Assembly (NCBI GenBank): GCA_963920765.1 | Contig: OY987242.1 | Span: forward strand, 8,892,789-8,956,788 | Origin: Ulota crispa | Taxonomy: Eukaryota; Streptophyta; Bryopsida; Orthotrichales; Orthotrichaceae | Direction: 5' to 3' | Length of the DNA stretch: 64,000 nt | Shown: one piece after another, positions 11,360 through 50,160 of the stretch | How positions within the stretch are numbered: the first letter of the stretch is position 1 | How the letters are laid out: every line of letters begins with the position of its first letter | Translations under genes and position numbers: made by a program | The notes under the pieces: model-generated | Told to the model about the DNA's origin: nothing | Databases searched by the model: none | The model's input: the letters and a program-made list of their open reading frames with translations, nothing else

Positions 11360-14300
11360 TTATGAATTTATTTCTAAGGGGACTGGTGGTACCTGAGTAA
11401 AAGAACTAGGAACGGTGGTACTTGATAATTTGAGGGCAGCAACTTCCACTCGGAAAAATATCCATTGAAACCGACGCAACATCTCCAGTAACGAGAAAAT
11501 AAACACAACTTTGAAGTTCTTTCGGAGAGGGGCTGAGAGCTTGTACGTCCAAGCCCCTCGCAACACCATGTTGGAGCATATTGCCCAATAATATACCTTC
11601 AGTTGTTTAAGAAAAGAACAGCTTAGCCCATTAGAATGATATAAAACTATCGACAAAGAAATGTTTAAAACATCATTAGAATCAATCGTGTTCATAAAGA
11701 ATTAAAATTTAAAATGTCAAATTTAACAAATTTTATACTGTAAACGTAAATACGGAATGTGTGGAATAGTGGTGAATGGAATGTGTGGAATTATAGTGGT
11801 GATTGGAAGGATTAGTTGTTAAAACAAATTTTTCAAGGGAAAGACTAATGGATTCCCTTGAAGTTTGCAACATTTACATAGGTACCCTTGCTTTTTCAGA
11901 AATTGCACAAATATACTTTGATCATAATTTTTGGCATTTATTTGTTGTGTTTATATTTCTTCCATGACCAATGTTGAAGAAGGGAATGTAATGAAATAAA
12001 AAGAAGCAACGTGTGCACAAAGGAAGAAAGGAAGTGACATGCTTAACAAAACAAACTCTTGAAAATTTTGATCAAGGATATTTGTGCAATTTCTGAAAAA
12101 GCAGGGATATTTATGTAAATGTCACAAACTTCAAGGATATCCATGAAATTTTCAATTTTTTCAAATACAAACTAGCATCTATGTTGAGAATCTCCCAATA
12201 CAATTTATTAAATTCAAAAGATTTAGAAAAACTTCAATTATTGACTTCTATAATGCCGTTTATAACTAACTCTCAGTTCAAAATATTAATAACCATTCCT
12301 TAACCCCTAAATCCCTGAGTGTCCCCTCAGAGGACAAATGGGATTTCAAGCAAGTACCTACAGCCTCAATTTTTGTCTTGATTTTTTGAAACTTTTTTTG
12401 GAGATAGGAAAACACATTAGCTTTTGGGGAATATATTTTATATTCCAATCAATGCCCAAAAGCAATAGTTATGCCTCAATAAGCAAAAAAATATGCAAAT
12501 TGAGCAACAAAAAAAATTTACAAAAAAAATGATTTTTTTTTGTTTTTGTTTTTTTCCTCATAGATTATGGTTTTATCTACATTTGTAGCTTTGCTCCATT
12601 CCATTTGGACTAGTTAAGAGAAAGTTATGGACAATCTTGTTTTTTGGGCAGTTTAAGCATCTTCTTGAAAAAATAACTTATAAACTTCATTTTTGAATGC
12701 AAGTTAAACATTTTTTCAAAAAAAATTGTTGGAGAGGGTGAAGTTTGCTTGCTGGAACAATCTCACCATTGGGATTATTGAGTTTCAATTCCATTGCAAG
12801 GTTATTAACAATTTATATTCTGTTCAATCTTGTACCTTCTGCTACCTAATGTTTTTTTAAGAATGAAAATTAAGTACTTTTTGTTTTGATTTTTTTCTAA
12901 AGATTCTTATCTCAATTTTCCACCATAAAAAAATAAACCTCAAAACTCCATGGTGCAAAAATTTTAAGTTAAAAAAGTTCAAAGTCAAATAAACTAGTCA
13001 TTCAAGATGCAAAAAAGTTTGTTTTTTACATTTCAAATGCAAATATCTTGCAATCTATGCAGTCAAAGTTTTTGAATCTTTATTTCCACATTCTTATACT
13101 AGTCTAGTACAAGATCTTATGGTTAGATATGCAAAAAAACCAATTTTCAAATTTTTTTACTCTTTGCAATAGAAATGGCAATTTTGAGTGTCTTTTGACA
13201 AAATAAAGGCCCCAGGGATTTAGGGGTTAAGGTGAAGTAAAAAAATAATAATAAGAGAAAAAAAATTCCATTTTATAGTAAAGTAATATATTCAAACTTC
13301 CTAATGTGTGATGATGTGGTATTCCAGTCCATAGGTTCTTGCCCAAAGAATACTAGAGCAAACATAAGAGCCGTTGTTATTTTTTAAGATTTTGTGCACC
13401 ATGTATAGAAGGTATTTATGTATAAGAAAGTATCAATGACGAGTAGCACTTTCTTAGAAACTGTGCTAAATTTTAAATCACGTACCCAAGGTCGATTGTA
13501 TGTCAAAGTGGGTCGAAGGCATTGTTTCATTGGTTTCCATGGACCACTCATCCACCTACAATCATCGGATACTTTTAACAAATGAGGTGTAAGAGGATAG
13601 GGAAAATTTAATGAATACCCCTGAAGTTTGCCATACTTGTATAGATATCCCTGGTTTTTCAGAAATTACACTAATACCTTTGAACCATACTTTTTAGGAG
13701 TTTGTTTTGTTATGCATGCTACTTCCTTCATGAGTGCAATAGAATGGAAAAAAACTTGTGTGCACACAAGGGAGAAAAACGTGGCATGCATAATATAACA
13801 AACCCTTGAAAATAATAGTCCAAAGATATTTGTGCAATTTCTGAAAAGCCAAGGGTATCTATACAATTTCTGAAAAGCCAAGGGTATCTATACAAATATG
13901 GCAAACTTCAGAGGTATCCATAAATTTTCCCAAGATAATAATGCTCTATACTGAAGTGCAATCCTTGTTACCAAAGACATTCAAAATGATCAATGAGTAT
14001 TTGTTGACTTTTTTTTTCCCTCTAGAAGTGCATTACAAATCAACAGTTCGAGGAGTATTTCTCAACAAATGTATTCATCGAACTAGTACAAGTGTAAAGA
14101 AATGTTTGATTAATTCACTTAGCTCATTGAGCAGCAGAATAACCATAAACCAGCAAGCGAAAAACAAGTAGTTGGATGATGTAAAAGCACAAACCCAAGC
14201 TCCCAGTCTTTTGTGATATCCCACCAGAATGAGTAGCAAGAGTTGAGGATTGCACAGATTATCCACAGCGGACGCAATGAACTAAACCAAAATGACAACT

Positions 14301-17300
14301 CCACGTGATACTTTAGTGCAGAAATAAAGATAACTGGGAATGCTGTAGTATATTTTAATGCTGCACTCTCCATTCAGACACCATAAATTTTTATTTAGCT
14401 TCCCTATTCATGTCTTTGATTTACTTTTATGGTAATTAGCTTATATAGAAAGCGTTGACTAACTAATGCATGACTGATGTCTTTGATGACGTTTTAACTA
14501 ATTATGGAATATTTACGTAATTTTGGACTTTTTATGTTTATAAACATTGAAGATATTTCAATACTTGCAAATGTTTTCCCAAGATTTTCATCTTTCTATT
14601 TATTTTGTTATATATTTAATGGTTTGCAAGCATCTCTTAAATGATTTAAAAGTAAAACCAATGTTGCAAACCAAAGCAATTTCTATATAATTATTTATAA
14701 ACTTTGGAAAGTCCATATCTAGTTCAAGGTGGTATCTTAGCAATTAATCCATGGTGAGACATACTTAAAGAAAAAATGTGGCATTATTTTATGTCCTAAA
14801 TCATTAACTTGGGCATGGTTACAACAAACCATTAAAAAGGCATGTTTTGTCTTTTGAATCATGATATTGTCTTAGACATTGTAAAAGTCTGCAAAAATAA
14901 GGGAAAGCCAAAACAATAGGTACATAAATAGAGTGACCCCCACATGTGTCATTTGCCTCTAGTGATGCAACAGTGGCTACCTAGCCAATAACAACCAAAT
15001 ACATTGTTAGATCAAATTTTACTTAGAATTAAGTTGTTCTCATTAAAAAACTATGACCTACAACTCTAAAATGAAGACAAAATGACAAGATGAAACCCTC
15101 TTTTCAAGCAAATTACATAAAATCTACATGTAATATTTCCAAGTGGTTACAATTAAAGCGGTAGGTTGTTGTTTGGACATGACCAAATGAGTATTGTGAT
15201 TAACTCTTTAAGAATCTAGCATGATACAAATGAAACAAACAAAAAATTATAATTTACAAGGGTAGTGAAAAGGTAGTGAAAAGGTAGTGAAAAGCACTTG
15301 CTTGTTGATGATAAATCCTACAAATAGAGCATTCCATATCAGACAAAACCTGCACAAAAAATTTCTTATAGTAATCCTTGTATCAAAGGTTTCTCTAACT
15401 ACATGTAAAGGCACAATTAATTCCAAGGCTAAAAGTTTAAGTGGAACAAATTTAGAAAATTTGAAGTATAATAATAGTGGCATTGCCAAACTATGCAAAG
15501 ACATGTAACATAACATGTTAGTGAAACAAGTAAATAATGAAGATTATATCAAATAAACTATGACAAGGTAGTAAGCGCATGCAAAACTTTAATATTAGAG
15601 TCACAAACAAAACATGTCAAATAATCATTTAACAACCATCCATATGGATTGTAGATAATTTATCATATATCAAGATGATTAAGCAAATGGTGTGGCTTAC
15701 ATACTTTAGCCATGGAAGTTAACACATCAGCAACAAAAAAGTCAGCAAACAATATTGGCTGCACAGCATCATCAAAACATAAAGTCACCTACTTCGGCTA
15801 TGGAGGTCAATATGCTCTTCTTAAAAGAAGTCTGCAAAATGCTATTGGCTGCACAAAATCAACAATAAAACACAAAAACCATAATGAATACAAATTCAAC
15901 TATTTGTGTAATTTTGGGAATTTTCATCAAATTTAATTTCAAAAATGCTTATTAGTAAAAAATATAATTGAGTAGGAGGAGCATTTTATAAAACCATCAA
16001 TTATGAAAAATACATGCATAATTTTTTATCCAAGAGAGGCAATTCATTAATTTTCCATCATACTAATGTTGTAGGCTTGTAGCTCAATCCCAATCTAACA
16101 TTTTTATGAAGTAATTAGTTATTTCTCTAAAATTTGATGTATCATTACAAATATCAAAGTAAAGATTGTGTTACATATCATTTCATAACAAAAAGAAGAC
16201 TAACATTGATTCCTTCATTACTAGTCTATCCTTTTTATTGATTCACAAATAAGACCTGGATAGGAAAGGTAAGGCGGACAAGAGTCTTCAAGAAGAACAT
16301 TCTTGTTTGGATATAGAATATATCCAATGGTAATCCCAACACTAGAGGCACCATCAAATAGAGCAAGACCTATCAACCATATAACAATTTGCATGATTTC
16401 AACTTGTAATTTTTTATACACCAAATACAAAGTCAAATGGTTGTATTATTTGATCTTAGAATCATGCAAAATTTTAGAACACCATTCTCTATAAAATCAA
16501 GTTCTTACATAAAAAAACCTTAAAATCAAATAGTAAAATTATTGTATAAAAACAAATATCTAAAAAAAAACTGTTAAGGAATTATTTGAGGTATCATGTC
16601 AAAAACATCAAAACAATATGTCTTCAAAGGAATAAAAATCTTTGTAACCACATGATACAACCTTTAGAAGGCTTGAAATTCTACAAAATTGATATGACAA
16701 CATGCAACTCAACGAGGAACTAACATACAAACCTATATCCATGCTATGAATAAATATAAATCACTTTCATAAGATCTATTACTCAATCCAACAATTCCAA
16801 CAATTCCAAGGGAAAGTGTTTTAAGCTCTCAAAAGAAAAAACTCTCCAAATACAAGATGCATCATGTGCTTACTGGTTGTAGGGCTGCACATGAAACCAT
16901 GTTGTGTGAATAAAGGTGAAGGTATGATGTCATGCTTGTTACTGTGGCTGCAGTCATCCATGATGCTATCTATGATAAATGAAAAGAAAAGAACTTTCTT
17001 AAATCATTGTATAAAATGGATTCATTATATTTCATTTTGATTTTTTAAATTTTTGTTTAGAATATAGAAAGAAGTCTAGTTATTGTACATAGTTTCTTTT
17101 GATGAAATCTTGCATCAACCCTAGCATAAAACTAGGCACTAGAAAATTGTCACATCCAACAAAGAGAATTTAAGCCTAGAGCAACTCAAATGGATAGCAA
17201 AGTATACACCTTCCAAATATCTTTATGATTAATGTAGTTTGAACCTAATTCAAACACTTGGGCATAGGGTACATGAAAGTTTAAAAACATCCAAACATTT

Positions 17301-19900: not shown

Positions 19901-20031
19901 GGGAGTCAAAATCTTCATATCGTGGTAGAAAGGGGGTGAAAGTTTTGAAAGAGTAGATATACTCAGTCAAGTTCCTATCATTGGATTCTATCCTAGAATG
20001 ACGTTTTTCTTATTAGCAAACTAGTTATCTC

Positions 20032-20319
20032 AACACCATATTCGTTAAAAGGAGAAATCCATAGGTCCCATTTGTTTTTCACCTGAATCCAGAAAGTCCC
20101 CGTTAATTTAATTAAGCAGATCACCTGAAATCTGCTTAATGGAACTTCTGTCCAAAATTCTAGACTTTTTGTTCACAAAGAGCATATTTCTAAATGATAT
20201 ATATCTCATTTCATTAGAAAACAATCAACGGATTCCCAATTCAATGATTATGGCGTTCTCAGAAAAAAAAACCTAGTTCCAGTTTGTAAGAATGGTACCC
20301 TTTTAACGAATATGGTGTT
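20032..20319. mobile_element. MITE family with AACACCATATTCG ends, copy A
   Basis: Left end AACACCATATTCGTTAAAAG, right end its inverse CCTTTTAACGAATATGGTGT. No ORF. Four related copies (21252, 22363, 28032, 30829) share ends and interior. The superfamily is not identified. Confidence 0.75.
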
Positions 20320-20845
20320 TCTGTTAATAATATAACTTTTAGACAAGTGCAAAAGATTCTACCTCTGGGCATAATTATACTGAAGGAGCAGGAAAAGTAT
20401 TGACTTGCTGAATACAAAGTGTTGTGAGCAGAAAAACCACACCAGGTCTACCATTTACAACTAGACTGACATCCTGGAAGAGAGCGAAGAAATTTATTGA
20501 TGAATCTGAACCAGATCGATTGTTGAATATTGCAACCCAACCAATAATCCCAGTAAGTATGAAATATTCTTAATTCTATGCTACATGCTGCACATCAGTG
20601 TACAAATATCTCCTGAACGTTATTACCGACAGTACTGAGGTCTCCACATTGCAAAAGCAACCTCATACACGATGAAATTGTTTCGCATAGAAAAAAAAAC
20701 CAAAGGAAATCGAACCCTCTATGACACAAATGAAAAGCACCTTGCGGCACCTTTCATAAATAAAATGCTTATGATCATTAATAGAAAGAGAAAACTGCCT
20801 GATTGAAGACATGGATGAAAGCGAGAGCCGGTGTATGATCGAAGC

Positions 20846-23800
20846 TTAGCTGGAGGGAACCCAGGTGCTGCCATCGATGAAGCTCATGGATGAAAGAGCA
20901 CTGGCTTGGGACGCCGTGAGCTCCTTGGACCAGCTCACACGTTTGCTTTCGTCGGCACCTGCTCCCGTGCACATGTATTGCCCGTAGAACACCGTCCTAC
21001 AATTGAGTTGAGGCTGTGAATCAGAACAATGGATTGTGTATCGATTTACAAGGACCTAGATTTAAAATTTCAGAGCTTGCTCTCGAGAGAAGCTTTCGGA
21101 ACAGTTAATGTCACATACTCCCTCTGTACCTTTAAAAACGTCCAAATCAGACACATTTCTTGTACCACTAATGATTTCAAACGTTGAGAAAGCTTTTGTC
21201 ATGTTCAATGAAGTCTTGGAGGCATGAGGTAATGGGGTTAGTTAAGCAATTAACGCCATATTCATTAAATTAGGAAAATATTGGGTACCATTTTGTACCT
21301 CACCTTAATCCAAAATAGTCACCTTAAACTAAATTCAAAGGTATCAGATTTAGTTTGAGCCACTAAGATTTTTTCCCTCGCAAATTCCTCCTCTCAGGTG
21401 AGGTCACGTGTACCAAAAAAATCCTGGAGCTTGGACTAAGGTGATCACCTTAATCCTTCGAAAGTCCCACTTTGTACACTTTTTTCCTTTTTAATGAATA
21501 TGGCTTTAATTAGAGAGCGTTCCTCTCCTAGCAAGCTTGGCCTTGCCCATATGAGGTCCCGTATGAAGTACAATTATTACTACTAATCTTTAAATCATCA
21601 ATAAATATGGTACTTTTTGCATGGAGTTTGGGTGCCCAAATGGCAACATCAAAGTTGGAGATTATGCATACAGTTGATAGATGGTATATTGATTCTAGAA
21701 GGCATGTGTCACTAGCACAAAGACTAAAAACATAGTAAATCCATTTGAAGGAAGTTTTTTGGACGTTTTTAGTGGTACAGAGGGAGTACACATTTGGACA
21801 ATTAGCAGCACCGTCTGAATTTCAGATTGATGTTGTAGCTCAAGGGTTTGCAATGGACGGAAAAGGGATTCGCAAGGCTTACTTCTCTCGGCTGCTCTCG
21901 CCCCAGTTGTACCAGCCTTGCGGTAAGATCATGTCGGCGATGTTGCAGTAGATGAAGACGGTTCGGGAATTGGGACCCCAAGCGCGGCCCAAGTACACGG
22001 GTCCGTTGCCGGTGATTGTGCAGCCCACGAATGAGAATCCGGTGTTCTCGTCGCCCGTTCTCTTCTGAGCTGTGAGCGAGCCACTTCCGGACTTGGCTAT
22101 GGAGTTCAGGTGACAGCTCTGCAGCAATCAGCGAGAATCGTTCAATAACGCAGCTAACGTAGTACCAGTTTTTGCTCTTAAGCTGCTGAAAGAAATGACA
22201 CTAGGATTAATATCAATAGAAGAAACAGATTGAGAGGGCATCGATTCAATGCAATAGGAATGGTAGCGGCGAACCTGGTAGATTGATTGTCCATCTCCGC
22301 AAATGAAGTCGATACTGCCTGTCATTTAATCAAAAGCATTAAAAACAAGTTACTTTGCAACAAACTCCATATTCGTTAATTTGGGAAAAACAGGTGTCCC
22401 ACTTTGTACTCCACCTTAAACCCAAAAAGTTACTTTAAACCAGATTCGAAGATTCAAAGGTATCAAATTCAGTCTGAGCCAGTCCCTGGCAAATTCCTCT
22501 TCTCAGGTGAGGACACGTGTAGGTTTTAGGAGGCCACTAAAACCTTCATATCAAAATCTGAAAATCCCAAAATGACCCGTTTTTCCCAAATTAACGAATA
22601 TGGTGTTACATCTTTAGATGATTGAGCTGATTTTTGTAGTAAGGAATAAAGCTAGTGAAGATTGTAAGCAATTATCTCTCCAGGATTGATTTATTATAAT
22701 ACCTTCGATGTAGCAGTTCTTGAAGTAATGACGACCCTTCTGGTCGTAGAGCGTGTCCTGGGCCCCGAGGAAATTGCAGTTGAAAAAGGCTCCCTTGTCA
22801 CCAGTAATCCGAAGAGCCACTGCTTGTCGACCGACAGCTCCTCCAGAAGGTGCCGGTGCGGAGTTCTGAATGCACAATTGAACCAGTCAAATGCTGGATA
22901 TGGAGCGGTATCTTACGTTCTAGAATGCACTTCAGGCTAGCTGTCAGGGTAGCGCTTGCTTCGCTGAATGCATCTGTTACGAATCGAAGGTTAATTGGTT
23001 TGTATTGTACCTGGAACGTCACACCTCTGGCAATGAAGTAGTCTGCAAGAATTTCGACGCTGGCGCTCTTCGAAGTGCTTCCAGCAGAACTGGCGGTATC
23101 GTCGTACACCAGCACCGGATTGCCCACTCCCTGAAACGTGATCGTCTTCCCTTTGGGCACCGACACGTGTCCCCTGTCAAAATCACACTCCAAACCTGAT
23201 CAGAACTCTATATCGATGTATCAATCCTGAGTCTTTCCCGAACACTGACAACATTCAAGCGTTACTTTACGACATAGTGATCAAGGGCTATGCTAAGCTA
23301 ACCAAAAAGTATTGGAGAGTCTAAATGCTCGATACTCCTAGGAAGAGTTGAGCACTTGGTTCAGAGAATCTCGAATTCACAAACTGTACTACAACAAACG
23401 ATTAACATGGTTTCCAAGTTTGTACGTAAAAGATTTCTTAAAACTTACAGGTTTGAAAGGCGGTTGACTTCCTAAAAATGGCGGATTACTATGTCTAAAT
23501 TTGCGAAATTTCAGTTTGACTGAAACCTCAACTCTGTAGCTTTCTTAGCCTGATATCAACCGTCACATGAAAGTCAAAGCTTCAATACCTCAGTTACATA
23601 ATGTTTCAATGCATCTTTGGTGACGAGTACGACCACGGGGAAGTTGGTTCAAATCAATGCCAGTTTCAGATGGTTTTTAGAGCTTACGGCACTTGAAAGT
23701 GCCGTGATTCCAGGACTAGTATGAAATAAAAGCCATACATTTCGACGGAAACGACCGTGAGGATTGAATTTTCATAGTTTGAATTAATGAAGAGAAGGCT

Positions 23801-24297: not shown

Positions 24298-24299
24298 AA

Positions 24300-24999: not shown

Positions 25000-25897
25000 T
25001 TAACCCCTAAATGCCCAAGGCCTTGCTGAACTTTTTGGCATTTTCAGGAAAGTGAAAAATCAACCAACCTTTCATAAATTTCATCAAGTTTTTTAAAATT
25101 GTATTTCATCAAGTTTTTTAAAATTGTATTTCATCAAGTTTTTTAAAATTGTAGCTGTACAAATTAAATCTTGACAGTAGACATGTTAGAGATTACATGG
25201 AAAAAGAAAACAAAACAATTTCACTTATAGTTTGAAAGATTATAACATTTGAACATGAGGGTGTTAAAACTATAAAGGCATTTTCAGGAAAGTGAAAAAT
25301 CAACCAACCTTTTCATAAATTTCATCAAGTTTTTTAAAATTGTAGCCGTACAAATTAAATCTTGACAGTTGACATGTTAGAAATTACATGGAAAAAGAAA
25401 ACAAAACAATTTCACTTATAGTTTGAAAGATCATAACATTTGAACATGAGGGTGTTAAAGCTATAAAAAAACTTAAAGTTTTATAATCCTCATTTCACAT
25501 GTCAAATCTAAAAAGTTGGTCATCAAAAAAATATGAGGTTTAAAGTCATGACATGTTTAACCTCAATCAATTTACGGCTTCCAAAATCTACTCTTGTATT
25601 TTTTTAAATGGACTTCTAATGCAGATTTCTCTCCAAGCTCTAGTGTATTTGAGGCATATTTTCAAGATCTTTCAACACTAGAAAACTCAAGATTACAGTG
25701 AATACCCTTGTACAAAATCTTGAATAGAAAAATCATGAACATTCATTTTCAAAATCAGATTTTTGATACTGAAAATAGACTTCAAAACAAACTTGTGTTC
25801 AAAAGAAAATACCAAAAATAGCGGTCTGATAAGATTTTATTAATCTTCAAAATTTTGCAAACACCCAAATTGGGTGCCTTGGGCATTTAGGGGTTAA
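25000..25897. mobile_element. TTAA-flanked MITE (piggyBac-like ends), 898 bp
   Basis: Ends TTAACCCCTAAATGCCC and GGGCATTTAGGGGTTAA are perfect inverse copies; pairing extends 21 bp including TTAA. The interior holds a near-perfect direct duplication of about 200-245 bp (from about 25037 and 25278) and three copies of a 25-bp unit with CATCAAGTTTTTTAAAATTG at 25079-25153. It shares interior sequence with the element at 45621-46270. No ORF. Confidence 0.85.
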
Positions 25898-31754: not shown

Positions 31755-32713
31755 TTAACCCCTAAAGGCCCAGGCTATTTTTTCTGTGAAAAATAATGAA
31801 AACTGCCACTTTTGGGGATGAAAGGAATGGTTTTCTTTTTATTTATTTTTTGAAATCCAATTGTAAGATCTTGCTCTAGACAGCATGAGATACTTGGGAA
31901 AAAAATTGAGCTTATTCCAAATGTGGAAAAAAATTGAGCTTATTCCAAATGACAAGAACTGAGATTTTTACAAATGAAGTGAAGAAAAAAGTTTTTTTCA
32001 TACTACTTAAAAATTTCAGATGTTGTTGACCACTCCTATATCAAAAAATTTGCTCTGCGCAAAGTTGAGGTTTTTTTTCCCATGTAGAAGACCAAGTTAG
32101 GTATGTGTGGGAGAATTTTTAAATCAATTGGAACTATACAACACATGGGAAAAATCAATTAGTAAAAAGAAGTAGAGAATGGGTCAAAACACTAAATTGT
32201 TAAGAATCTAATTATTGAAATGAAAAATGCAAATCCCAACGGTGATAGTCTTGTGTTAAACAATCTACTTCCTTGGGTTTAGTTTTTTTCCAAAATATTG
32301 AAAATTGAGTAAAATAAAGGACTTCAAAGTTAATTTTAGAGTAGAGAATCCATAATTGCCCGTGAACAAAAACTCCTTATAAGTTTCATCTCATTGATTG
32401 AAATTGAATGATTCAAAGCTTCTCATGTATGAAAGAATGTAAGGAACCAACTTCAAAATTTTATTTTAAAAATATATAATTTTAAAGAAGTTTTTGGGCT
32501 GCCTAGATGGGCAGCCCTCCCCAAAATTTCAGGAAAACATGCATAACTTCTTCAATAAATGTCGGAATGAAGAAAAAAATTGATGCCTAGGTATATTTTT
32601 GAATTCCCCATCTCCCATAAAAGTTTCAGAAAATTACATAAAGTAGTTTACTCATAAGTACATGACCAAACCCCAAACGATCCTTGAAGAGACAATGGGC
32701 CTTTAGGGGTTAA
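31755..32713. mobile_element. TTAA-flanked MITE (piggyBac-like ends), 959 bp
   Basis: Ends TTAACCCCTAAAGGCCCA and TGGGCCTTTAGGGGTTAA are perfect inverse copies. The interior is closely related to 35963-36887 and, reversed, to 47681-49105 (shared AAAATTGAGTAAAATAAAGG). A 27-bp direct duplication lies at about 31895-31950. No ORF. Confidence 0.85.
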
Positions 32714-35962: not shown

Positions 35963-36887
35963 TTAACCCCTAAAGGACCAAGCCATTTTTTCTGCAAAAA
36001 ACACATAAAATTGCCACTTTTTGGGGAAGCAAGTACAATGGTAAGATTTTTTTTATAGAAGAATTCAACCGTAAGATTGTAGACTACAAGAGGTACACGT
36101 GGTAAAAAAATCAGCTCAATCTACACAAAAATGAGAGATATTTACATCTGAATTGCGGAATTTTTTTTTTTGCTGCTGCCCAGAAATTTCAAAAGGCTTT
36201 GACCACTCTTAGATCAAAAAAATTACTCTACACAAAGTTGAGGTTTTTTTTTTCCCATGTAAAAGACCAAGTTAGGTATGTGTGGGAGAATTTTCAAATC
36301 AATTGGAACTATACAACACATGGGAAAAAATAGTAAGTAAAAAGGAGTAAAGAATGAGTCAAGACACTAAATTTTTATGAATTTAATTATTAAAATGAAA
36401 AATGCAAATCCCCACGGTTATAATGTTGTGATAAACAATCTACATTCTTTTGTTTTATTTTTTTCCAAAATAATGAAAATTGAGTAAAATAAAGGACTTC
36501 AAAGTTTATTTTAGAGTAGAGAATCTAAAATTGCCCGTAAACCAAAACTCCTCATAACTTTCATCTCATTTATTAGAATGGAATGATTCAAAGCTTCCCA
36601 CATCTATATAAGTCTAAAGAACCTATTTCAGATTTTTATTTGAAAAAATGAAATTTTTAAAGAAGTTTTTGGCTGCCCAAGGAACAATATTTTCTAGATT
36701 TTCATACATGACTTCTTCAATAAATGTTGGAATGAAGAAAAAATTACATTCCCATGTAGATTTTTGAATTCCTCACCTTCCATAAAAGTTTTAGAAAATC
36801 ATGCAAAGTAGTTTAGCCATAGGTACATCCGTACATGCCCGAAATCCCATTTGTCCCCCAAACGGACAATGGTCCTTTAGGGGTTAA
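35963..36887. mobile_element. TTAA-flanked MITE (piggyBac-like ends), 925 bp
   Basis: Ends TTAACCCCTAAAGGACCA and the inverse GGTCCTTTAGGGGTTAA. The interior is a diverged sister of 31755-32713 along most of its length. No ORF. Confidence 0.85.
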
Positions 36888-37249: not shown

Positions 37250-37497
37250 TTAACCCTTGAGCGCCCAAGAGACCATATTCTGGTTGCTCTGAATAAAAAA
37301 TGTTTCCTCTTTGATTGATATAATCTTTTCATTGACATAGTCAAAACATTTGTCCTTTCTCCTGTACATTCGGGCCTAGCTCTACTACCTATTGATACGT
37401 CAACTTCTATGAATCTTGTTTTTGATAACAAATTAACTGGAACGAGTTTGTATATGTCTAGATTTTAGTGAGCACGGGCTGGGCGCTTAAGGGTTAA
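37250..37497. mobile_element. Short TTAA-flanked MITE (piggyBac-like ends), 248 bp
   Basis: Ends TTAACCCTTGAGCGCCCA and TGGGCGCTTAAGGGTTAA. The terminal CCCTTGAGCGCC is close to the CCCTTTG-type ends common in animal piggyBac families. The interior is unrelated to the 0.9 kb members. Confidence 0.8.
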
Positions 37498-38187: not shown

Positions 38188-39128
38188 TTCACCTCTAAAT
38201 GCCACTGAAGCTGTTTTTCTTGTTTTTGGAAGGCAATTTTGAATTTTTTGAATCGTCATTATAAGATCATTGTTAAACATTAGAACAAAATTGTAACTAA
38301 AGGATCTCAAACTTCAAGGCTTGTAGATGGTGTTGCCAAAAAAGAACTCCAAATAGGCCTAGCAAATTCTAGGAGATGTGGTGGAATGTGGATGACTATG
38401 GAATTTTTTGGTTTTTTTGGAGCTGCCCAAAACTTTTAATGCAAATTGGCAACTTTTGGAAACAAAATTGGGAAACATTCAACCATTTATGATGCTATTG
38501 AGAGTGTTTATTGTTGTTTCTTGAAAATTAAAAGCCCTCCTTTGAAACCCATGATCACATTTTCACAAATGAGCTTGCAATGCAATTGTCGGAATGCAAC
38601 CGCCCAATACAAAGAAAAGCTTTGTTTCCAATTGATTGACCCAGAATCATTATGAATGATTGAGAATTCAATGATGAGTGAACCGTCTCTAATTTGTATT
38701 ACATAAATGTTCCAAGTGAATGAGTGCAAAAACACATTTGGATTTTGTTAAATGATGAACTTTCAATATAAGAGCCTTCACTGCCCAAGGGAGTGTCCAA
38801 GCCCAAGGGAGATCTTCACTTTACTCTCAACTTGTTGCCCATTTTTCCAATGTGACAGCTTGTCATAGGCTCTTTAGTGACACTATGCACCTCACTTTTT
38901 GGTGCACAAGGGACGATTCTCCTTGTTGTTTAGCTTTCATGCACCAAAAACAATGGGAAGAAGGTATGGGAGTGATTGAAATTGAGTGCAAAAAACTAAA
39001 TTTAACGAGCAACTTCTTTAAAAAAAACCTTAAAACAATTAAATCTCTGTCTTCTTCTTCAAGCAAGGTTTCAAAGTTTCTTGAACACCCAAATTACAAA
39101 TTGGGTGCCTCAGACATTTAAGGATTAA
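38188..39128. mobile_element. Degraded TTAA-type MITE, about 940 bp
   Basis: Left end TTCACCTCTAAATGCCA (first TTAA mutated to TTCA), right end CAGACATTTAAGGATTAA. These are decayed versions of the AAATGCC end type, and the inner right arm (CACCCAAATTACAAATTGGG) matches that of 25000-25897. No ORF. Confidence 0.6.
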
Positions 39129-40318: not shown

Positions 40319-40432
40319 AAACAATATTAAAGGGCATATTTGGGCTTCTTCAGACATGTTGTAATTTTGAAATAGAACAATATTAAAGGGCATATTTGGG
40401 CTTCTTCAGACATGTTGTAATTTTGAAATAGA
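40319..40432. repeat. Perfect 57-bp tandem duplication
   Basis: The unit beginning AACAATATTAAAGGGCATAT and ending TGTAATTTTGAAATAG is present twice head to tail. A recent slippage or unequal-exchange event. Confidence 0.85.
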
Positions 40433-41960
40433 TTGTTTTTAGAATAACCTAATTGGAAAATGATTTTCTAGGTTTTTTTTGTTTTTAGTTTCATCAGATT
40501 ACGACAAAACAAATCTTGAATCCGATTGTTTTGAACGAAATTGATGCAAAATTTTCCAATATGCAATGACGTGGACTCAATTCAGAATCGCAGAATCTCA
40601 CATCTCATGAAACTACAGAAAATTTGGATTATCTTGATAAGTATGCTGAATCATTTGTATATTGCGATTACATAGAATGGTGTATATATAGTACATAAGA
40701 TGTTTAAACAAAACTTCTATCAATAAAAATTACGTCCAAAGTTATTGAAACGAAAATATTAATAACATTGAAAAGAAAGGATTCGATGCCGATAATCGTT
40801 TATCAAGAACTGTCTTACTCAAAACTCATTTTCTACAAATCATGAAGTTATGATTTTAATCAAATACGTAATTGTTCATTTATTGATCCGATGAATCGCC
40901 ATTCTTTTTCCCAAAGTTGTTATTAAGTAAACTTCTTTTGGGCGGAAAAACTTTGAAAATATGCATATCTCAACTTATTGGATTATATATGTTTGAGTCA
41001 AAATACGAAAAGCATAAAAAGAATCCGGTTTATTTTCTGGTGCTTTTATCATACGTGATTTCATAAAATGGATATATTTTGAAATTATAGAAAAAAGACA
41101 AACATATATGACAATTAGTATTTTGCTGAACAATAAATCTACTTTAAATTATAGTTTCAACTTTATCCTTATTTGTAAGAAACATTTCTATCCATTTGCA
41201 CATGAATGTTGCAATAATTATGTAGCTACACCATAATAAACATTTTGCTATTCTAAAACTTTCAAAAAGTTGAAGAAACGGGCTAGTACCAAAGCGTATG
41301 GTTCCTTTGTCATTTCTAAAAGGAGAAATCTTGGAGCTCTTTACTCAATTCCCCATGAACTCTAAAATCAACACTTAGAGCAGTGCCATCCATGGGCTGC
41401 CATATTGACTGAGCGGAGGGTGGTTGTTTTCCTTGCTGCTTTCAACTCTTGAATGCCACGCTAGTCATTGTGGTAGTCCTCTTTTGAAGTGCTATAATGG
41501 TGTGGCAAGTGTCCACACAATTTAGTATTGTCTCCAAAGTTGCAAATGTCAACAGCGCATGTTCCTCTCAAAAAAATTGCAAGAAAGACAACAAGAGACC
41601 TAACACATTGATTGTCAATCTTCTTACAATTTGGGTTACCTAAAAATATGATTACATTTAATAAGATTGTTTTTGCCTTCCATAATGGACCCATGCAACT
41701 ACAATCACTTCTATAAAAAAATCAAATAAAAAAATCAAATGAAAGACAACTTTTTCCCATCCTATACAACATTTTTTTATAATGCATCGGACAAAACCAG
41801 TCTGCTTGGGCATCTAGGGGTTTAGTTAAATATCACCAATCCATACTTGCTATTTCGCCAGGGTAAATTAATAGTGAAGCCTTTGATGATGAATGTCGAA
41901 TGTTGCCCCAAGTGCAGTGGCCTTGACTATTCAACCCACAACTAGTGTTATTGAGCACTA

Positions 41961-42921
41961 TTAATCCCTAAAGGACCAGGGGTGTTTAATGAGAAAAATC
42001 TCAGAAACTGTCAACTTTTAGTGCATTGCCCAAAATTTAAAATAAAAACCTTTTTTCTCAATTCCAACCATACAAAAGTGTGTCAAATAGATAAATTAAT
42101 GTGTGCAAAAAAATTCAGCCCATTTGACCACACGAATTGTAAGATTATAACATTTGAAGTGAGAAAAATAGCTTTTTTTCATTCCTGCAAAACAAGGTCA
42201 ACAGACTTTGACCCTTCCTAGAGTAAATTTTTTGCTCTACACAAATTTGAGCTTTTAGACCATTCACAAGTATATGATGTTAGGTTCACTCATGAAATTT
42301 TTCAGATGCAAATATAAAGTTTAGCTTATTCTAAATCACCCTCCAATGCAAGGAGGTTTAGTGAATTGGCAATACCTTAGTCATTCTTTCATGATTTCTT
42401 GTGCAATGTGGAAGTTTTTTATTTGAAATCTGAAAGGTGAAAAGTTGGAGACAAACATTTGGAATATGTGAAAAAAAGTTTCAAGAGCTTTAGATTTATA
42501 GATTGAAAGAAAATAGGGTTTGAAGTTAGAGGAATTTTTTTTCCTTGAAGCTACCCAAACATAGTTAACAAAGTTTGACTCCCTTTAGAATGTGATGTGA
42601 GTTCACAATTTGTTTATTTTTTTGACAATTGTACACCATGTTTTTTTAGTTACATACTTGCCAAATTTCAAAAGTTAATGAAAGTTTTAGCATAAGATTC
42701 TCCAAAGATGCTCAAACTGCCTGAACTGCCCAATTTCTTTTGGGCAACATAACTTTTGAACCGAGTATCTGATTGGGGAAAAAATTAGATTTCCACTTGG
42801 GAGATACAAATTTACACCTTGTATAACAATTTTGAGAACATCCAATAAAAATTAATTCCATATAACCCTACCCAAGTTCTCAAGTGACTATTGAACAGCC
42901 ACTTAGTCCTTTAGGGGTTAA
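41961..42921. mobile_element. TTAA-flanked MITE (piggyBac-like ends), 961 bp
   Basis: Ends TTAATCCCTAAAGGACCA and the inverse of TTAACCCCTAAAGGACTAAG. It belongs to the AAAGG end type with 31755 and 35963, but the interior is more diverged. No ORF. Confidence 0.8.
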
Positions 42922-43268
42922 CTATGTTAAGGACTACAAAACCACCAAGGTACAGATGGCGCTGCAAAGCCTTTATATGCGCTTGCGGGGGCGCTTGCTC
43001 TGCCTTCTTCAGGATGAGAGCTCTTTTGAAGCCTCCCTTTGCAAGCCTCGGATGTGTTGAGACCCAATGCCATTGTGGCCTTGAAAAACAGCACTTGCAT
43101 CAGTTTTTGGCGCAACAAAAGAAATGAAATCTGCCACATCAAAGAGGGCTTTCACCTGGCTCGGCTTTTCTATTTTCGGTGCTGTCTAGTGTCTACCCAT
43201 TGGGGCTCACCGCAGCAAATGGTGTCAAACTGTGACAAGTACCGACTACCGAGTTGGATTGATGATAA
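42922..43268. other. GC-richer stretch of unknown origin
   Basis: About 42950-43230 is GC-rich compared with its surroundings and has overlapping short ORFs on both strands, but I recognise no protein family and see no splice pattern. It could be a captured gene fragment. Confidence 0.3.
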
Positions 43269-43896
43269 TAGTGGGTGTCAAACCTGGCATTTTTCAAGGT
43301 TTCAGGATAACTTTGTCTTGATTTTTTAATAAAGTTATGGGGTGATGGTTGAATTAAATTCTCCAAAGTTATGACCCTCGCAAAGTTTCACAAACTACTT
43401 GATAAAAATTTGAGTAAGTCTTCATAACTTATGTATGGGATAATGTCACAAAGATTGATGTGTGATACTAAAGAGGGAGGGTGTGATATTAAAGAGGTTA
43501 GGGTGTGATATTACAGAGGTAATGTAGATTTTAGTAATATGATTAGTAATAACATTAACATCTTTAATTTCACACCCTCCCTTTTTAATATCACACCCTC
43601 CCTCTTTAGTATCACACTCTCCCTTTTTAGTATCACACTCTCCCTCTTTAATATCACACCCTCCCTCTTTAGTATCACACCCTCCCTCTTTAGTATCACA
43701 TTCTCCCTTTAGAAGAGAGCTACAAGATCACTTGATAACTTTTATAAAGTAAGGCCATAACTAGTTTAAGTTTTCAACCACCTCTAGAGGTGGGTGATGA
43801 AGTTATCATGCCTTATAATTTCAAAAAGTGGTTGAGTTGTGGGCTGGACCCAGCCAAACTTGTCGGGTGGGAAATAGCCAGGTTTGACACCCACTA
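43269..43896. mobile_element. DNA element with TAGTGGGTGTCAAACC ends and an internal tandem array
   Basis: Perfect 20-bp inverse ends: TAGTGGGTGTCAAACCTGGC at 43269 and its complement ending at 43896. Inside are about seven units of a 20-21 bp repeat (TATCACACCCTCCCTCTTTA) at about 43565-43707 and about three inverse units at 43460-43520, so the centre can fold. No ORF except low-complexity frames. Superfamily unassigned. Confidence 0.7.
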
Positions 43897-44296
43897 ATAC
43901 CCTTATACCACGTTGTGGCTCCTACACTGAGTATTGCGTTTAAGTTGCCCCACATTAATTTGTCAACATTTCATGCTATATAAATATTTACTGCTGCTAC
44001 AGTGTATTTCATCAAAAATTACTGCAATAAATCATTTTTAGACAACAATGATGCTGCAAAAAGACAAACTTGTAGCTTCCAAATCATAAACCATGTGAAA
44101 TCCAAATATTTTGTGTGTTGCATGTGTCTCCAAGTGGCCAAGTGATGAGTCATGAGGTAACTTACCTGAGTAAGGCAACCTAATTGTCAAGGCAACCTAA
44201 ATGCAAAATTCAATGTAGTTATGATCATCACCATCTGGATATCCAAGAAGGGATCTCCTGCATTCCAGCTGGGTATGCATCTGAGAGTTCTTTATA

Positions 44297-44619
44297 GAGA
44301 AAATTTTATGGATACCTTTGAAGTTTGCAATATTTGCATAGATATCCCTACTTTTTCAAAAATTACACAAATATCCTCGGATCAAAATCTTGAGGCATTT
44401 ATTTGTTGTGCTTGTATTTTCTTCATGACCAATGTTGAAGAATGTAATGATTGAAACAAAATAGAAGCAACATGCGCACAAAAGAAGAAGAGAAATGACA
44501 TGCACAACAAAATAAACATCTAGAAATTTTGGTCCAAAGGTATTTGTGTAATTTCTGAAAAAGCAAGGGTATCTATGTAAATGTTGCAAACTTTAGGAGT
44601 ATCCATGAAATTTTCCTCT
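44297..44619. mobile_element. MULE-like MITE, copy 4
   Basis: Ends GAAAATTTTATGGATACC and GGAGTATCCATGAAATTTTC, with TCTTTATA directly repeated on both sides (8 bp, within the usual range once TIR edges are allowed for). Same family as 10854, 11836 and 13600. Confidence 0.8.
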
Positions 44620-44662
44620 CTTTATAACGTTCAGAGAGGTATTGTGCTCTAGTACAAGTGTA

Positions 44663-45131
44663 GAGCATCTCTTGCACCCTCCAAATGTCAAGGTCCCTCT
44701 CAAATATGGATGAAAAGTAAAAAAAATCTAGCGGTGTCAAACTAAACCTCTACATTCACTAGTAGAAAATTGTGTTGAAGTCAACATAAACTACATAATG
44801 TTTTCATGCTTCTAACGCAAAAATTTGCGTTACAAGCATGAAACATCACGTAGTTTATGTTGACTTCAACACAATTTTCTATTAGTGATTTATCATCCCC
44901 TTCAAATTAGCCATATTTTAAGGGGTTTTTAAACCCTCTACAAGCTATATTTTCTTATTGTCATAGCTTACTTTATTGCTTTTGAAAATTCCTTAACTTG
45001 TGATTGGTTGACACTATATTTAACAAGTTGCATTGTTGTGGATACAAGTGACTTACATTTCCTCTCAAATGGACAGAGAGGAATTGAAGGGACCAAGGAC
45101 AGGGGTAATGACAAGGTTGCAAGAGATGCTC
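44663..45131. mobile_element. Harbinger-like MITE with GAGCATCTCTTGCA ends
   Basis: Ends GAGCATCTCTTGCA and the inverse TGCAAGAGATGCTC, flanked by GTA and TTA. A 129-bp CACTA-type hairpin (44758-44886) is nested inside. A second element of the family follows 50 bp downstream. No ORF. Confidence 0.7.
44758..44886. mobile_element. CACTA-type foldback MITE, 129 bp, nested
   Basis: Starts CACTAGTAGAAAATTGTG and ends with the inverse CACAATTTTCTATTAGTG. The arms of about 60 bp are nearly perfect and meet at a short loop (GCAAAAATTTGC), so the whole element is one hairpin. Confidence 0.85.
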
Positions 45132-45180
45132 TTACCTTCAATGTTGATAACCAAGGCTTGAAAAGGTCATCCTGGGTTTA

Positions 45181-45538
45181 GAGCATTTCTTGTAGCCCGC
45201 TACCTAAGCCACGTGCTCCCCAGTTGTTATGACTTCCTCGTTTTCAATCTCCAATAGCACTCAACACGTCCTTGTGCAAGTCGCGAGGCCTTCATATTGA
45301 ACCGCATACCCTCCAAATTTCAGCTTCAGGTCCCCTTCACTTTCCTTGGCAAGCATTGTTCAGGCACGTCTCCACTCCATAGCTAGGTGTACCTGCGCGA
45401 CTTGTTGTGACGCAGGTGCAGGCCTTGAAGATTTCAAGGCTACAAGAGAACTTTAAGCCTCGCCGTGAAAGTTTGCATCATTTTCCATGTGAAATCCCAT
45501 TTATCCAGGTGTTGCAAAGTGTGCTGCAAGAGATGCCC
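45181..45538. mobile_element. Harbinger-like MITE, second copy, with TTA duplication
   Basis: Ends GAGCATTTCTTGTAGC and the inverse GCTGCAAGAGATGCCC, flanked by TTA at 45178-45180 and 45539-45541. The interior is GC-rich and unlike the first copy. No ORF recognised. Confidence 0.75.
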
Positions 45539-45620
45539 TTAGGTGTTGACTATTATCTTTGGAAAGGATGGTACAGATTGTGAGACTGCAAACTACAGAG
45601 CACCATCACTAATAAGACGA

Positions 45621-46270
45621 TTAACCCCTCACCGCCCATAGTAGTTTGGAGTATCTTAGAATTTGCTTGAAAGTGAACAATATGCCCGCATTTTGATCAA
45701 TCTTATCAAATTTTTCTGAAGCGCAACCATACAAATTCAAGTAGACATGTTATATATCATATAGGAAAAGAAATCACAAAAATATTATTTATGGATTGAA
45801 ATTTTATAATATTTGATCCTGAGGGTGTTAAAATTGCAAAAGTGATTTTAAGCCTTTCAATCCTCTTTTTGCATCTCAAACCTAAAATTGAGGGTACCAA
45901 AAAAATATGAGTACATAAAGTATAACATGCTTAACTCTAATCAATTTATGGCTTCTCAAAATCTATTCTACATTTTTTTAAATTGAAATTTTAATGTGGT
46001 TTTTCTCCAAGTTCTAGTGTAATTGAAGCTCATTTTCAAGAGCCTTCAACACTAGAAAGTGAAGATTTGCAATGGACACCCTTGCACAAAATCTTGAATA
46101 GACAAATCACATTAATTCATTTTCAAAATCAGACTCCTAATGCTCAAACTAGACTTCAATAAGAGTTTAAAAATAATAGTAATTGTTAAAAATCTTATAG
46201 AAAGGTTATGTATCCCTGAAATAAAATTCAAAGAAGACCAATTTGGGCCCCTTGGGCGGTGAGGGGTTAA
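45621..46270. mobile_element. TTAA-flanked MITE (piggyBac-like ends), 650 bp
   Basis: Ends TTAACCCCTCACCGCCCA and GGGCGGTGAGGGGTTAA. The interior is a diverged copy of 25000-25897 without its internal duplication (AGACATGTTATATATCATAT against AGACATGTTAGAGATTACAT). No ORF. Confidence 0.85.
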
Positions 46271-46680
46271 TTTGGATCCTACACGTGGCACATGTAATTG
46301 GTATGGGACAACGGAAAAGCGCATTCTAATTTTCTCTTGGGAGAGTGGTGCCACGTGGCTTCCTTGTACATTGCCAATTGACCCCTTGGAAGACAAGGAG
46401 CATGGGCCTCCATGTCGAAAATCTAAAGGCGTTTCCAGATATTAAAGTTATGAAGGAACCTAACCTATACGCAATACAATAGTGCCTCAATATAATGAAG
46501 GTATCAAGACAGCATATTCATTTCATGTAAGAAAAACATTCATTATAACTAAAAGACCTTTGGAGCTCCCTAGCCACCAGGGACAGTCAACTACTTCATC
46601 TTAGCCAAGTGTTTTTTCTTATAAAAGTTCATCTTAGCAAAGCACTACTGTACAAGTTTGGTTTTATGTTGACCTTGTAC

Positions 46681-47143
46681 AGTGGTGCTTGGTTAGCATC
46701 AACCAAGGCTTAAATTGCTGGCGAATTCTGATAGATTTCCTCCATTGCTTTCCCTTCCCTCCAAAAATTCTCCAATATAGAGGGGACAACTCAGCACTCA
46801 TTTGCCAAAAATTCAAACCCTGGCGTCAATCTTTGTAAAATCAATAATTGGATAAGATCACAACCCCACTCTCCTTTTGCTCAAAAGTATGTATTATGAG
46901 CTTGGAAAAAGTCAAGTGCTTGCATATGGTCAATGTTTTCTTTTCATCAATTCCCATTTTGACTCTTTAGTTAGAAAGGCATCTGGTTAGTATCCCAAAA
47001 ACATGGGTGGGAAAGCACCTCCAAAGTTGTAACCCCTAAAACTAGGAAAAATAACATAAATGGAGGGTTTGTTTATGATCAATGCTTGGATAAGGTCAAC
47101 ACTTTCTACAAGCCCAAAGTGTTGACACTAACCAAGCACCACT
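46681..47143. mobile_element. MITE with AGTGGTGCTTGGTTAG ends
   Basis: Left end AGTGGTGCTTGGTTAGCATC, right end GACACTAACCAAGCACCACT. No ORF. Superfamily not assigned. Confidence 0.7.
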
Positions 47144-47203
47144 ATATTTAAATCGGACCACAGTACGCAATTCACATGAGCATGTGGATTTCATATGAAC
47201 TAG

Positions 47204-47524
47204 TAGGAGGCTCATAAACCAACCCTCTAAGGGTTGAAACTGAATTTTGGAGAGAGGTGAAATTTTTTGAACTATTTTTCAGTAAAGTTTTCTTGAAAGA
47301 CAAGAAGAATTGACATCTAACTCAAGTTGTTTCATATTTTTTGGAACTTTGTTGAATAAGTCATAAAATTTTGAAGTGAAAAGGCCATAGGGCTCTAAAA
47401 CAGTTCACCTCCTCAAATGTACTTTGTTTGTACATTTTTGAAACTTATGAAAACAACATGTATACATGAAATACATTTAAGAAGGTGGATGGTTTTAGAG
47501 CTTGAGTGGAATATGAGCCTCCTA
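47204..47524. mobile_element. Small element with TAGGAGGCTCATA ends (Tc1/mariner-like)
   Basis: Inverse ends TAGGAGGCTCATA and TATGAGCCTCCTA; TA at both borders is consistent with a mariner-type target. Pairing inward is patchy. No ORF. Confidence 0.6.
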
Positions 47525-47680
47525 CCTTAATATGGAAAATGAAATCTTGAAATGGCATGATATCAAACATGCACGTACTTGGCATTAATTTGTTCCAATG
47601 AATACATAAAATTGAAATATAAGTTAGAATTGTCTTCCTTGGAGTTTGTTAGTAAGGTAGACAGACCCATACCCGATAGT

Positions 47681-49105
47681 TTAACCCCTAAATTTCTGAA
47701 CACCCGTTTTTTTGTGGCAACATAGCAATTTTGGGCAGCTCACTACCATTGGGTTTTTCATTTTTTTCCTTTGGAGTTATCATACATGATGTGTCCAAGG
47801 AGTAGCTTTAAGGTCCAACAATTTTCTTAACTTTTGACTTCACAATTCAAAAGTAATTGCATGATATATAGTTATTTTTGCTTGGCAAGCTACTTGGCAA
47901 GCCATTAGAGAAAATATGAGCCCTCCACAAGGACCCTAAGAATCCCTTTCAAGGGATCTCCTTAATTGTTTTAATTTGTACTTTAGGACAAAATAAATTC
48001 TTTACACCCTACTATGCCTTTGAATACAATCATGGCTCACATTGGCATGTCCAATTTTCATTGGGCGTCACAGTTACATGTACATATTACCATGGTCCTT
48101 TTTCTCTATATTAAAATCTTGAGCCTAGTACTTGTGAGGGTAACATTAGTTATGATTGTGTACAATAGTAGGAGAATAATTAAAAAATTGTGACATAGTA
48201 CTAGATTGCCATTTTCTATTCATAGTTTTTGTGATGTACATCATACAAGGTAGAGACACTTCACACACGCTTTAATGTACCCACTGTAGGCCCAATAAAT
48301 GTTAAGAGAGACCATTCTTAAGGGCCTTGTGGAGGGCTCATATTTTTTCTAATTTTAGATTTTTTTTTTTTTAAATTGCATTTTTTGAAATTTGTTTTTT
48401 GAAATTTGTTTTTTGAAATTTGTTTTATGAAATTGGTTCTTTAGATTTATACATACATGGGAAGCTTTGAATCATTCTGTTTTGATCAATGAGATCAAAG
48501 TTATGAGGAGATTTTGTTAGCGGAGAGTTATGGTTTCTCTACTCTAAAATAAACTTTGAATTCCTTTATTTTACTCAGTTTTCAATATTTTGGAAAAAAA
48601 ACAAAACCTAGGGATGTAGATTGTTTATCACAACATTACAACCATTGGGATTGGAACTTTTTATTTCCATAATTATGTTCTTAACAATTTAGTGGTTTGA
48701 ATAATTGTCTACTTCTTTTTACTTATTATTTTTTTCCTTGTGTTATACAATTCCGAATGATTTGAAATTTTTTGAGTGTGTGCCCAACTTGCATGAAGAG
48801 CAAATCCAAAAATTTACAACCATTTTGGAAGCTTTTTCATACAAATATGACCTTGTGAAGTGCAATTGCCCGGATTTTGCAGGGACAAAAATTGGCTTTT
48901 TGTCAATTCAAACTCAAATATCTTACAATCTACATAGTGAAAAAATTTGAATTTTTTTCCACATCTTTTGATACTAATGTAGTACAAGATCTTATGGCTA
49001 TATTTGTCAAAAAATGTTTTTTTTCTAAAATTTGGTACTTGTAGTAGAAATGGTAGTTTTGGAATAGTTTTGGTGAAAATTTGAGCTTAGTGCTTTAGGA
49101 GTTAA
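47681..49105. mobile_element. TTAA-flanked MITE (piggyBac-like ends) interrupted by another MITE, 1425 bp
   Basis: Left end TTAACCCCTAAATTTCTG, right end TGCTTTAGGAGTTAA (one base decayed). Removing the insertion at 47905-48352 leaves about 977 bp, the size of its relatives. Its interior is a reverse copy of the core shared with 31755 and 35963. Four units of a 16-bp repeat (TTTGAAATTTGTTTT) lie at about 48384-48436. Confidence 0.75.
47905..48352. mobile_element. MITE with TTAGARAAAATATGAGCCC ends, nested in a TTAA element
   Basis: The two ends pair over about 38 bp, centred on ATATGAGCCCTCCACAAGG and its inverse near 48323-48342. No ORF. Confidence 0.75.
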
Positions 49106-50090
49106 GAGTTTGGGGTAACTCAAGGTCTTGGAAAGTTCAGGAAAAAAATCCATAGGGTTAGCCTTTCAATAAGATATCATAGAACGTAATTTTTGTGGAA
49201 AAAAGTATTGTAGAATATTTTACATTAACACCTAAAATGGACACAGCGTGCCAATGCGACCAATAGAATACGAAGTATTTTTCTTGTATTTGGACTAGAT
49301 TCACTCCTTTACTACATTTGAGATCAACAAAGAAATTGGAGGATAGATCAAAGCTGTTCTAGTGAGCTACTGGAGATCCCAATTAAAACTTCTTTTTGGT
49401 AGCAAATGTCAATTATATGGCAGCGTATATACTATGCTCTATGGTTTAAGGGTTAAAGGGCAAAGTTGGAGCTCATAGGGTCCCTATTAGCTACTCTAGA
49501 CTAACTTAGAAATTGCTTGGATGTGTTCCTACAACGGTACTTGACAATCATAATCCCAACCTTCCAAACTAGCTTAGCAACTGACATGTAACAGGATTTG
49601 ATTATGTAAGTAGAGTTCACTGCTCCACTATGGATTCAATAGTGTGTGGTGAAACCCTCAAAAGTAGGGTGTGGAATTGGGAACTAATTAGTAATAGGTG
49701 TGTCTACCTTATGGTTTGGACAAATGAGGTTGTAGTGCTACACATTTGTCTTCTTAGCTAACGGAGCCACTAACTAATAAGCACTTGGTGCAATTGCTGA
49801 TGTACAAATGTAGCAAACATTCTTGATCCTTTGAGCCTTGGATTACTCTAAGTTCCTAATGTAAACATCCCTTGAACAAAATCTTTTCTATTTTTGGTTG
49901 CCCTTGTACTTGTCATTGTAACAATAAAATTTGCAAAGTGGTGTCACGCTCTGTAATGCCATTCTTGCAACAAACATGACACTTGGCTGTATGTTTTTCA
50001 AGCAAATTTTATGTAAGCTAAGGGTCTCATGCACAAACAACCTCATGTTTACACCATTAATAACTCAATTTTGCTCTTGATTTCAATTTC
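49106..50090. other. Intergenic DNA; possible further short TTAA element at 49226-49456
   Basis: TTAACACCTAAAATGGACAC at 49226 and TTTAAGGGTTAA ending at 49456 may be ends of another short TTAA element of 231 bp, but only the outer bases match. The rest shows no gene. Confidence 0.3.
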
Positions 50091-50160
50091 TTAACCCTTA
50101 AATGCCAAATTATGGTGGGTTTTACACTAGAATTTGGTGCCTCAAACATTTAGAGGTTAA
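50091..50160. mobile_element. 70-bp TTAA-flanked mini-element
   Basis: TTAACCCTTAAATGCCAAAT at the left and AACATTTAGAGGTTAA at the right, with about 30 bp between. This is almost only the two termini of the AAATGCC type, an extreme internal deletion product. Confidence 0.75.

Follow-up and report, generated by a model that had tools for sequence, protein, structure and literature searches.

What has moved the short elements scattered through this stretch of the Ulota crispa genome (contig OY987242.1), which lie between TTAA tetranucleotides and carry inverted ends starting with CCC? The window, by which we mean the whole stretch of 64,000 nucleotides, was analysed together with the genome it comes from. 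We conclude, with a probability of about 0.9, that these elements are non-autonomous DNA transposons of the piggyBac superfamily, namely miniature inverted-repeat transposable elements (MITEs) or MITE-like elements of 70 bp to 1.4 kb, in a land plant. The ends and the TTAA flanks recur through the window, two of the insertions have gap-free empty copies, and the genome contains piggyBac genes, one of which lies in a full element with like ends. Below, L-numbers denote loci fetched from this plant's own genome (G000) and C-numbers denote its contigs.

Elements of the window and their families

Overall, 11 TTAA elements occupy 8,240 of the 64,000 bases of the window (~13%). The original prediction had listed nine elements and a decayed one, all ten of which are found where it placed them; it overlooked one (49225-49456), and the element at 47681-49105 is a patchwork. 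The non-autonomous elements are located at 12300..13230 (931 bp, both ends TTAACCCCTAAATCCCTG), 25000..25897 (898 bp, ends TTAACCCCTAAATGCCCAAGGC, with relatives bearing the same ends reached in L007 and L017), 31755..32713 (959 bp, ends TTAACCCCTAAAGGCCCA, its family being shared with 35963), 35963..36887 (925 bp, ends TTAACCCCTAAAGGACCA), 41961..42921 (961 bp, a member of a high-copy family) and 45621..46270 (650 bp, TTAACCCCTCACCGCCCA at both ends). A short element is present at 37250..37497 (248 bp, ends TTAACCCTTGAGCGCCCA and TTAACCCTTAAGCGCCCA), and the decayed one at 38188..39128 (941 bp) reads TTCA.. on the left and TTAATCC.. on the right, with relatives in L009 and L020. The patchwork element at 47681..49105 (1,425 bp) sits in an older repeat, and so does the element at 49225..49456 (232 bp), which was recognised because this host repeat has uninterrupted copies (L017, L012, L023). 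At 50091..50160 there is a TTAA-bounded remnant or micro-element of 70 bp, whose ends are related and poorly matched. The lone right end that had been placed near 41811-41829 is present, decayed, on the minus strand at 41813..41824 with two mismatches. In addition, an extra left end, TTAATCCCTTAAGGACCA, lies at 60448, beyond the range first described and without an obvious partner, and element 25000 has an internal duplication of ~149 bases at 25128-25467 (96.6% identity).

The two ends of an element, with the TTAA counted, match without interruption over 18-22 bases in 5 of the 11 elements, as expected from the perfect inverse repeats of 10-20 bp first described; that description fails for the other six, in which the match before the first mismatch covers 9 bases (37250), 2 (38188), 4 (41961), 5 (47681 and 49225) or 6 (50091). 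Short inverted repeats abound in the window, whose sequence is rich in A+T, and this would suit the view that we are dealing with chance short inverted matches in A+T-rich sequence. The counts make such an origin extremely improbable, however. TTAACCC(C/T)T ends occur 16 times in the window, where 1.6 are expected from its dinucleotides, and the word TTAACCCCTAA is found 34,662 times in the 274.8-Mb genome (17,299 forward + 17,363 reverse) against 231 (115 + 116) for a reversed-word control in the same genome. Assuming two such ends for each element, the genome-wide number of elements would be about 17,000, and the true figure is probably larger, because many ends differ by a base. Chance is equally unable to explain the family of 41961, for which the genome search gave 2,110 candidates. 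Among the best 40, which were scored and include the window copy, the other 39 are 90-94% identical to it and are distributed across nine chromosome-size contigs, and 31 of the 40 cover the full span 1-961; a more divergent copy (87.5%) lies in L004.

Several interior types use this kind of end in the window: 31755 with 35963 (76% identity), 25000 with 45621 (74%, partial), 41961, 12300, 38188, 37250 and smaller ones, while the interior of 47681-49105 resembles pieces of two other types. The only stop-to-stop open reading frame (ORF) of at least 110 aa inside an element (38759-39121) has no Pfam match, and none of the window elements encodes a PF13843 transposase. Being short, non-coding, uniform in length, high in copy number and inverted at their ends, the elements have the properties of MITEs, with the 961-bp family as the case in point.

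The TTAA target and the empty sites

The conservation of TTAA was analysed with inner motifs, TTAA being left out of the search word, in a sample of 243.8 kb made up of the window and L009-L028. Sites of the form CCC(C/T)TNANNG(A/C)CC are preceded by TTAA in 19 of 23 cases, and the other four are one base off. For CCCCTAAA(G/T)G the proportion is 16 of 19, each exception again being one base off. Since the inner motif alone still finds TTAA before most of its sites, the tetranucleotide does not owe its presence to the choice of search word, and its conservation outside the repeats, as first noticed, is upheld. Position -5, just outside the TTAA, has mixed bases.

Such flanks fit either a duplication of TTAA or a shorter duplication within a strict TTAA target, which read the same in DNA alone. 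One form of the latter is a TA duplication by a Tc1/mariner-like element that starts with ACCCC and strongly prefers TTAA: TTAA[CCCC..GGGG]TTAA and T-TA-[ACCCC..GGGGT]-TA-A are identical letters, and their empty sites read alike. We nevertheless consider this most improbable, as the inner TA is no more strongly conserved than the T and A that enclose it, while the base beyond them varies, and as the transposase that lies between such ends is of piggyBac type. A PIF/Harbinger origin with a TTA duplication was rejected, for it would leave the ends unequal by one base.

Empty sites, which the original prediction had wished to take from a related species, are provided here by paralogous copies. 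The older repeat that hosts 47681-49105 and 49225-49456 has three uninterrupted copies, all gap-free at both joins and with TTAA mostly intact. At the first join (47681-49105) TTAA is intact in L012 and L023 and has become TTAC in L017; at the second (49225-49456) it is intact in L017 and L012, with TTTA in L023.

piggyBac transposases and their relation to the short elements

The genome was searched, as proposed earlier, with the profile of the piggyBac transposase domain (PF13843, DDE_Tnp_1_7). At least 120 matches were obtained, with a best E of 1.3e-73 (116 of 528 candidates scored), against none in 14 control genomes. Many of the copies have stop codons and some are without them. Contamination is unlikely, because the matches occur on every one of the contigs C1-C11. 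Two of the ORFs match solved transposases, namely piggyBat (9c0f) with 2.5e-20 and the Trichoplusia ni piggyBac (6x67) with 3.6e-20, and the same two match PF13843 with 8.1e-63 and 6e-60. We fetched 14 distinct transposase loci (L039 and L043 are one locus), in three of which (L031, L032, L039/L043) a narrow motif search, strict in its third pattern, found the contexts of all three catalytic Asp residues; L029 and L041 gave the first two only. Between two transposase frames and the other fetched loci, amino-acid identities fall mostly within 31-47%, although a single pair reaches 70%. Because the identities are mostly this low, these 14 loci suggest many transposase lineages and not one recent burst, which together with the several interior types agrees with the earlier idea of several source elements. 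Some pairs of transposase matches have equal or near-equal scores, opposite orientation and a spacing of ~15-110 kb (C7:18203169 with 18224137, C2:36765124 with 36780554, C10:676128 with 786452), and may result from inverted segmental duplication or from duplication in the assembly.

One transposase-bearing element could be delimited completely. L029 and L038 share 90.5% identity over ~4.0 kb; their similarity breaks off one base beyond the right-hand TTAA. The L029 element starts on the left at L044:476 and ends on the right at L029:4002, with TTAA on both sides, so that the element extends over G000:C3:13130262-13135288 (5,027 bp) with a PF13843 domain between its ends. Its ends read CCCCTCATCGCCAA and CCCTTCATTGCCAA (in a longer reading TTAACCCCTCATCGCCAA and TTAACCCTTCATTGCCAA) and are alike at 12 of 14 positions inside the TTAA. 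A transposase-bearing element between matched TTAA/CCCYT ends, of the sort that the original prediction had proposed to look for, is present, though in decayed form, the domain having two stops. The 16-mer of its right end occurs at 14 places of the genome, two of which lie 1,365 and 1,364 bp past the L029 and L038 domains, respectively. On the reverse strand of L043 a 13-bp perfect inverted repeat, CCCCTTAGGGCCC, encloses a transposase ORF with its copies ~5.5 kb apart. A clean right end is present in 5 of the 14 loci (L029, L034, L038, L041, L042), L043 having its pair in eroded form. TTAA insertion with TTAA flanks, inverted repeats starting with CCC, and PF13843 between like ends in full-size elements, which characterise piggyBac, are all found in this genome.

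The transposase-side ends are themselves repeated in the genome. Places within one base of the L029 left end number 147, against 0 for the control, and include, among the 100 matches listed, two +/- pairs with MITE-sized spacings of 0.95 and 0.89 kb. For the right end of L041 (TTAACCCTTTAGAGACCA and kin) the number is 793, again against 0; no close +/- pair occurs among the 100 matches listed, and the two ends of this family may therefore differ. Several candidate ends were discarded. A looser scan gave no clear left end for L041 or L042; a weak left-end candidate at L041:634 (13/18), whose TTAA also belongs to an adjacent element, was discounted; and words in L032 and L040 that resemble ends with two mismatches failed a later scan. 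The presence of rare end words near transposases (117 of 120 domain rows) is circular, as the words had been taken from those loci, the exception being the L029 word beside L038. Adjoining the transposase-bearing element, L044:234-312 is a 79-bp element of TTAA type, with 84.6% identity between its right-hand 39 bases and the end of window element 25000.

How, then, are the short elements connected with these transposases? Because no window element matches a sampled transposase locus in DNA at E 1e-6, the link is based on ends, target and co-occurrence. Over its final 30 bases, 45621 is 86.7% identical to the outer 30 of L044/L029 (blastn, E 2.7e-4), and its ends (TTAACCCCTCACCGCCCA) agree with the L044/L029 ends at 16 of 18 positions. 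The ends furthermore form a graded series, from CCCCTCACCGCCCA (window 45621) through CCCCTCATCGCCAA (L044/L029) and CCCCTTAGGGCCC (L043) to CCCCTAAAGGCCCA (window 31755). From this we infer that piggyBac transposases, and not another enzyme using TTAA, moved each MITE family, and that they did so by cut and paste. A piggyBac-type DDD transposase would be made by full-size elements of ~5 kb belonging to several deeply separate lineages; it would recognise ends that start with CCC(C/T)T and usually continue with NANNG(A/C)C; and the short elements would be cut out and joined into TTAA, with TTAA on both sides as the outcome. That a TTAA-targeting transposase acted in this lineage, as first proposed, is supported by the piggyBac genes, the matched ends and the empty copies.

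A number of results weigh against this reading. The blastn comparison of the window elements with the 14 transposase loci gave no match at E 1e-6, and at E 1e-2 gave matches that are terminal or tiny only; no interior is shared with a named autonomous element, the likeness being limited to at most 30 terminal bases (45621 with L044/L029). The commonest MITE ends are CCCCTAAA, whereas the clean ends on the transposase side have CCCTT (CCCCTCA at the left of L029). Both ends are clean in one element only (L029), the scan of the fetched flanks gave no end at 8 of the 14 transposase loci, and the flanks of L043 are eroded to ATAA on the left and ATGG on the right. In the two C-terminal stretches tried, no Pfam family of C-terminal zinc-ribbon type was found. 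The remaining empty sites are also weaker. Among 28 joined flanks tested in the local sample, three gave spanning matches beyond the window cases. For L003:1501-2455, of the 41961 family, the window supplies an empty copy with CCAA instead of TTAA. For L010:7161-7695 (alternative left end 6260) a gap-free empty copy reads TTGA, and a further copy has a gap at the join. For L026:4930-5420 there are nine related copies, of which five are gap-free and lack TTAA, one has TTAA with an adjacent 3-column gap, and three have a gap at the join. Genome-wide joined-flank searches for 45621 and 31755 yielded no empty site; as no match crossed the join, they carry little information.

The alternative to which the first of these points would lead is that the MITEs descend from another superfamily using TTAA, and that the piggyBac transposases serve their own elements only. 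Kolobok and Sola3 both target TTAA, and such an origin would account for MITE interiors that have nothing detectable in common with the sampled piggyBac loci, and for a majority end, CCCCTAAA, slightly unlike the CCCTT ends beside transposases. It would leave unexplained that the ends grade into one another from window 45621 through L044/L029 and L043 to window 31755, that the terminal 30 bases of 45621 match those of L044/L029, and that piggyBac transposases are present and diverse in the genome. We therefore regard it as improbable, although less so than a TA duplication, and retain the assignment of the window elements to piggyBac.

piggyBac in the genome of a land plant

The genome is assembled with ten contigs of 15.8-41.4 Mb, C2 opens with telomeric CCCTAAA repeats, and C9 has such an array in its first 10 kb (L026). 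On contig C157 (112.5 kb, read over its first 10 kb) there are genes for ribosomal protein S7, an NADH-plastoquinone subunit (which we take to be ndhB), RNA polymerase beta and ycf66, for which reason it is assigned to the plastid. Plastid ycf66 is not known from seed plants, and its presence here points to a host that is probably seedless, most likely a bryophyte. Apart from the TTAA elements, two genes are represented in the window by exons, at 592-5244 and 55279-59391: one for a phage-type RNA polymerase, the other for a member of glycosyl hydrolase family 31. A 31-base inverted repeat starting with TACTCCCTCTGT, similar to the ends of Stowaway MITEs, bounds 21116-21788. A cluster of short repeats like GTGTGATACTAAAGAGGGAGG, in both orientations, lies at 43460-43700 and is perhaps a minisatellite or an inverted array, and the arms of an inverted repeat at 44756-44888, each of 48 bases and 94% complementary, are separated by 37 bases.

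The piggyBac superfamily, which is widely used for gene delivery, has been described chiefly in animals, fungi and protists, and MITEs derived from it are known in insects. The elements of this genome share with the superfamily, as represented by Trichoplusia ni piggyBac (6x67) and piggyBat (9c0f), the DDE_Tnp_1_7 domain, the TTAA flanks and the CCC(C/T)T ends; they differ in the land-plant host, in the 5.0 kb of the one complete element and in the many deep lineages within a single genome. Like the piggyBac-derived MITEs of animals, the short elements are gene-free, high in copy number, flanked by TTAA and provided with ends common to transposase elements, but many copies are 0.65-0.96 kb, which is long for MITEs, and have no interior homology to the sampled transposase elements. 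Kolobok and Sola3 are alike in target; the transposase sought and found here is that of piggyBac. The plant MITEs Tourist (PIF/Harbinger) and Stowaway (Tc1/mariner) are likewise short, high-copy and inverted-repeat elements, with duplications of TWA or TA and other ends. In the passages available of the papers cited here, a well-defined piggyBac has ~2,472 bp and CCCTT is the most conserved 5' motif of its ends (PMC10813416); plants are named among the hosts without detail (PMC10140906, PMC8086355); a plant review has PiggyBac in its list of DNA transposon superfamilies and otherwise as a tool (PMC10794571); plant occurrences are occasional, for example in red algae (PMC12732532); and 1,230 PiggyBac repeat pieces are tabulated for the fern Ceratopteris (PMC6890710). 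Such passages, which do not extend to subscription journals or preprints, contain no description of piggyBac MITEs from land plants.

The type of element is familiar; what stands out is its remarkable abundance and a host for which it is little documented. More tentatively, and at slightly under even odds, we propose that piggyBac has long resided and diversified in this seedless land-plant lineage, where many separate transposase lineages evolved and gave rise to TTAA MITEs by the tens of thousands, possibly amounting to about a tenth of the genome (a figure guessed from one sample, the window with its 13%); a superfamily would then be missing from the customary view of plant DNA transposons. 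The genome offers a place to study the life of piggyBac in plants, its possible arrival by horizontal transfer and the possible existence of plant-adapted transposases. The present case also suggests that elements of this sort may go unclassified where plant repeats are annotated with no piggyBac models.

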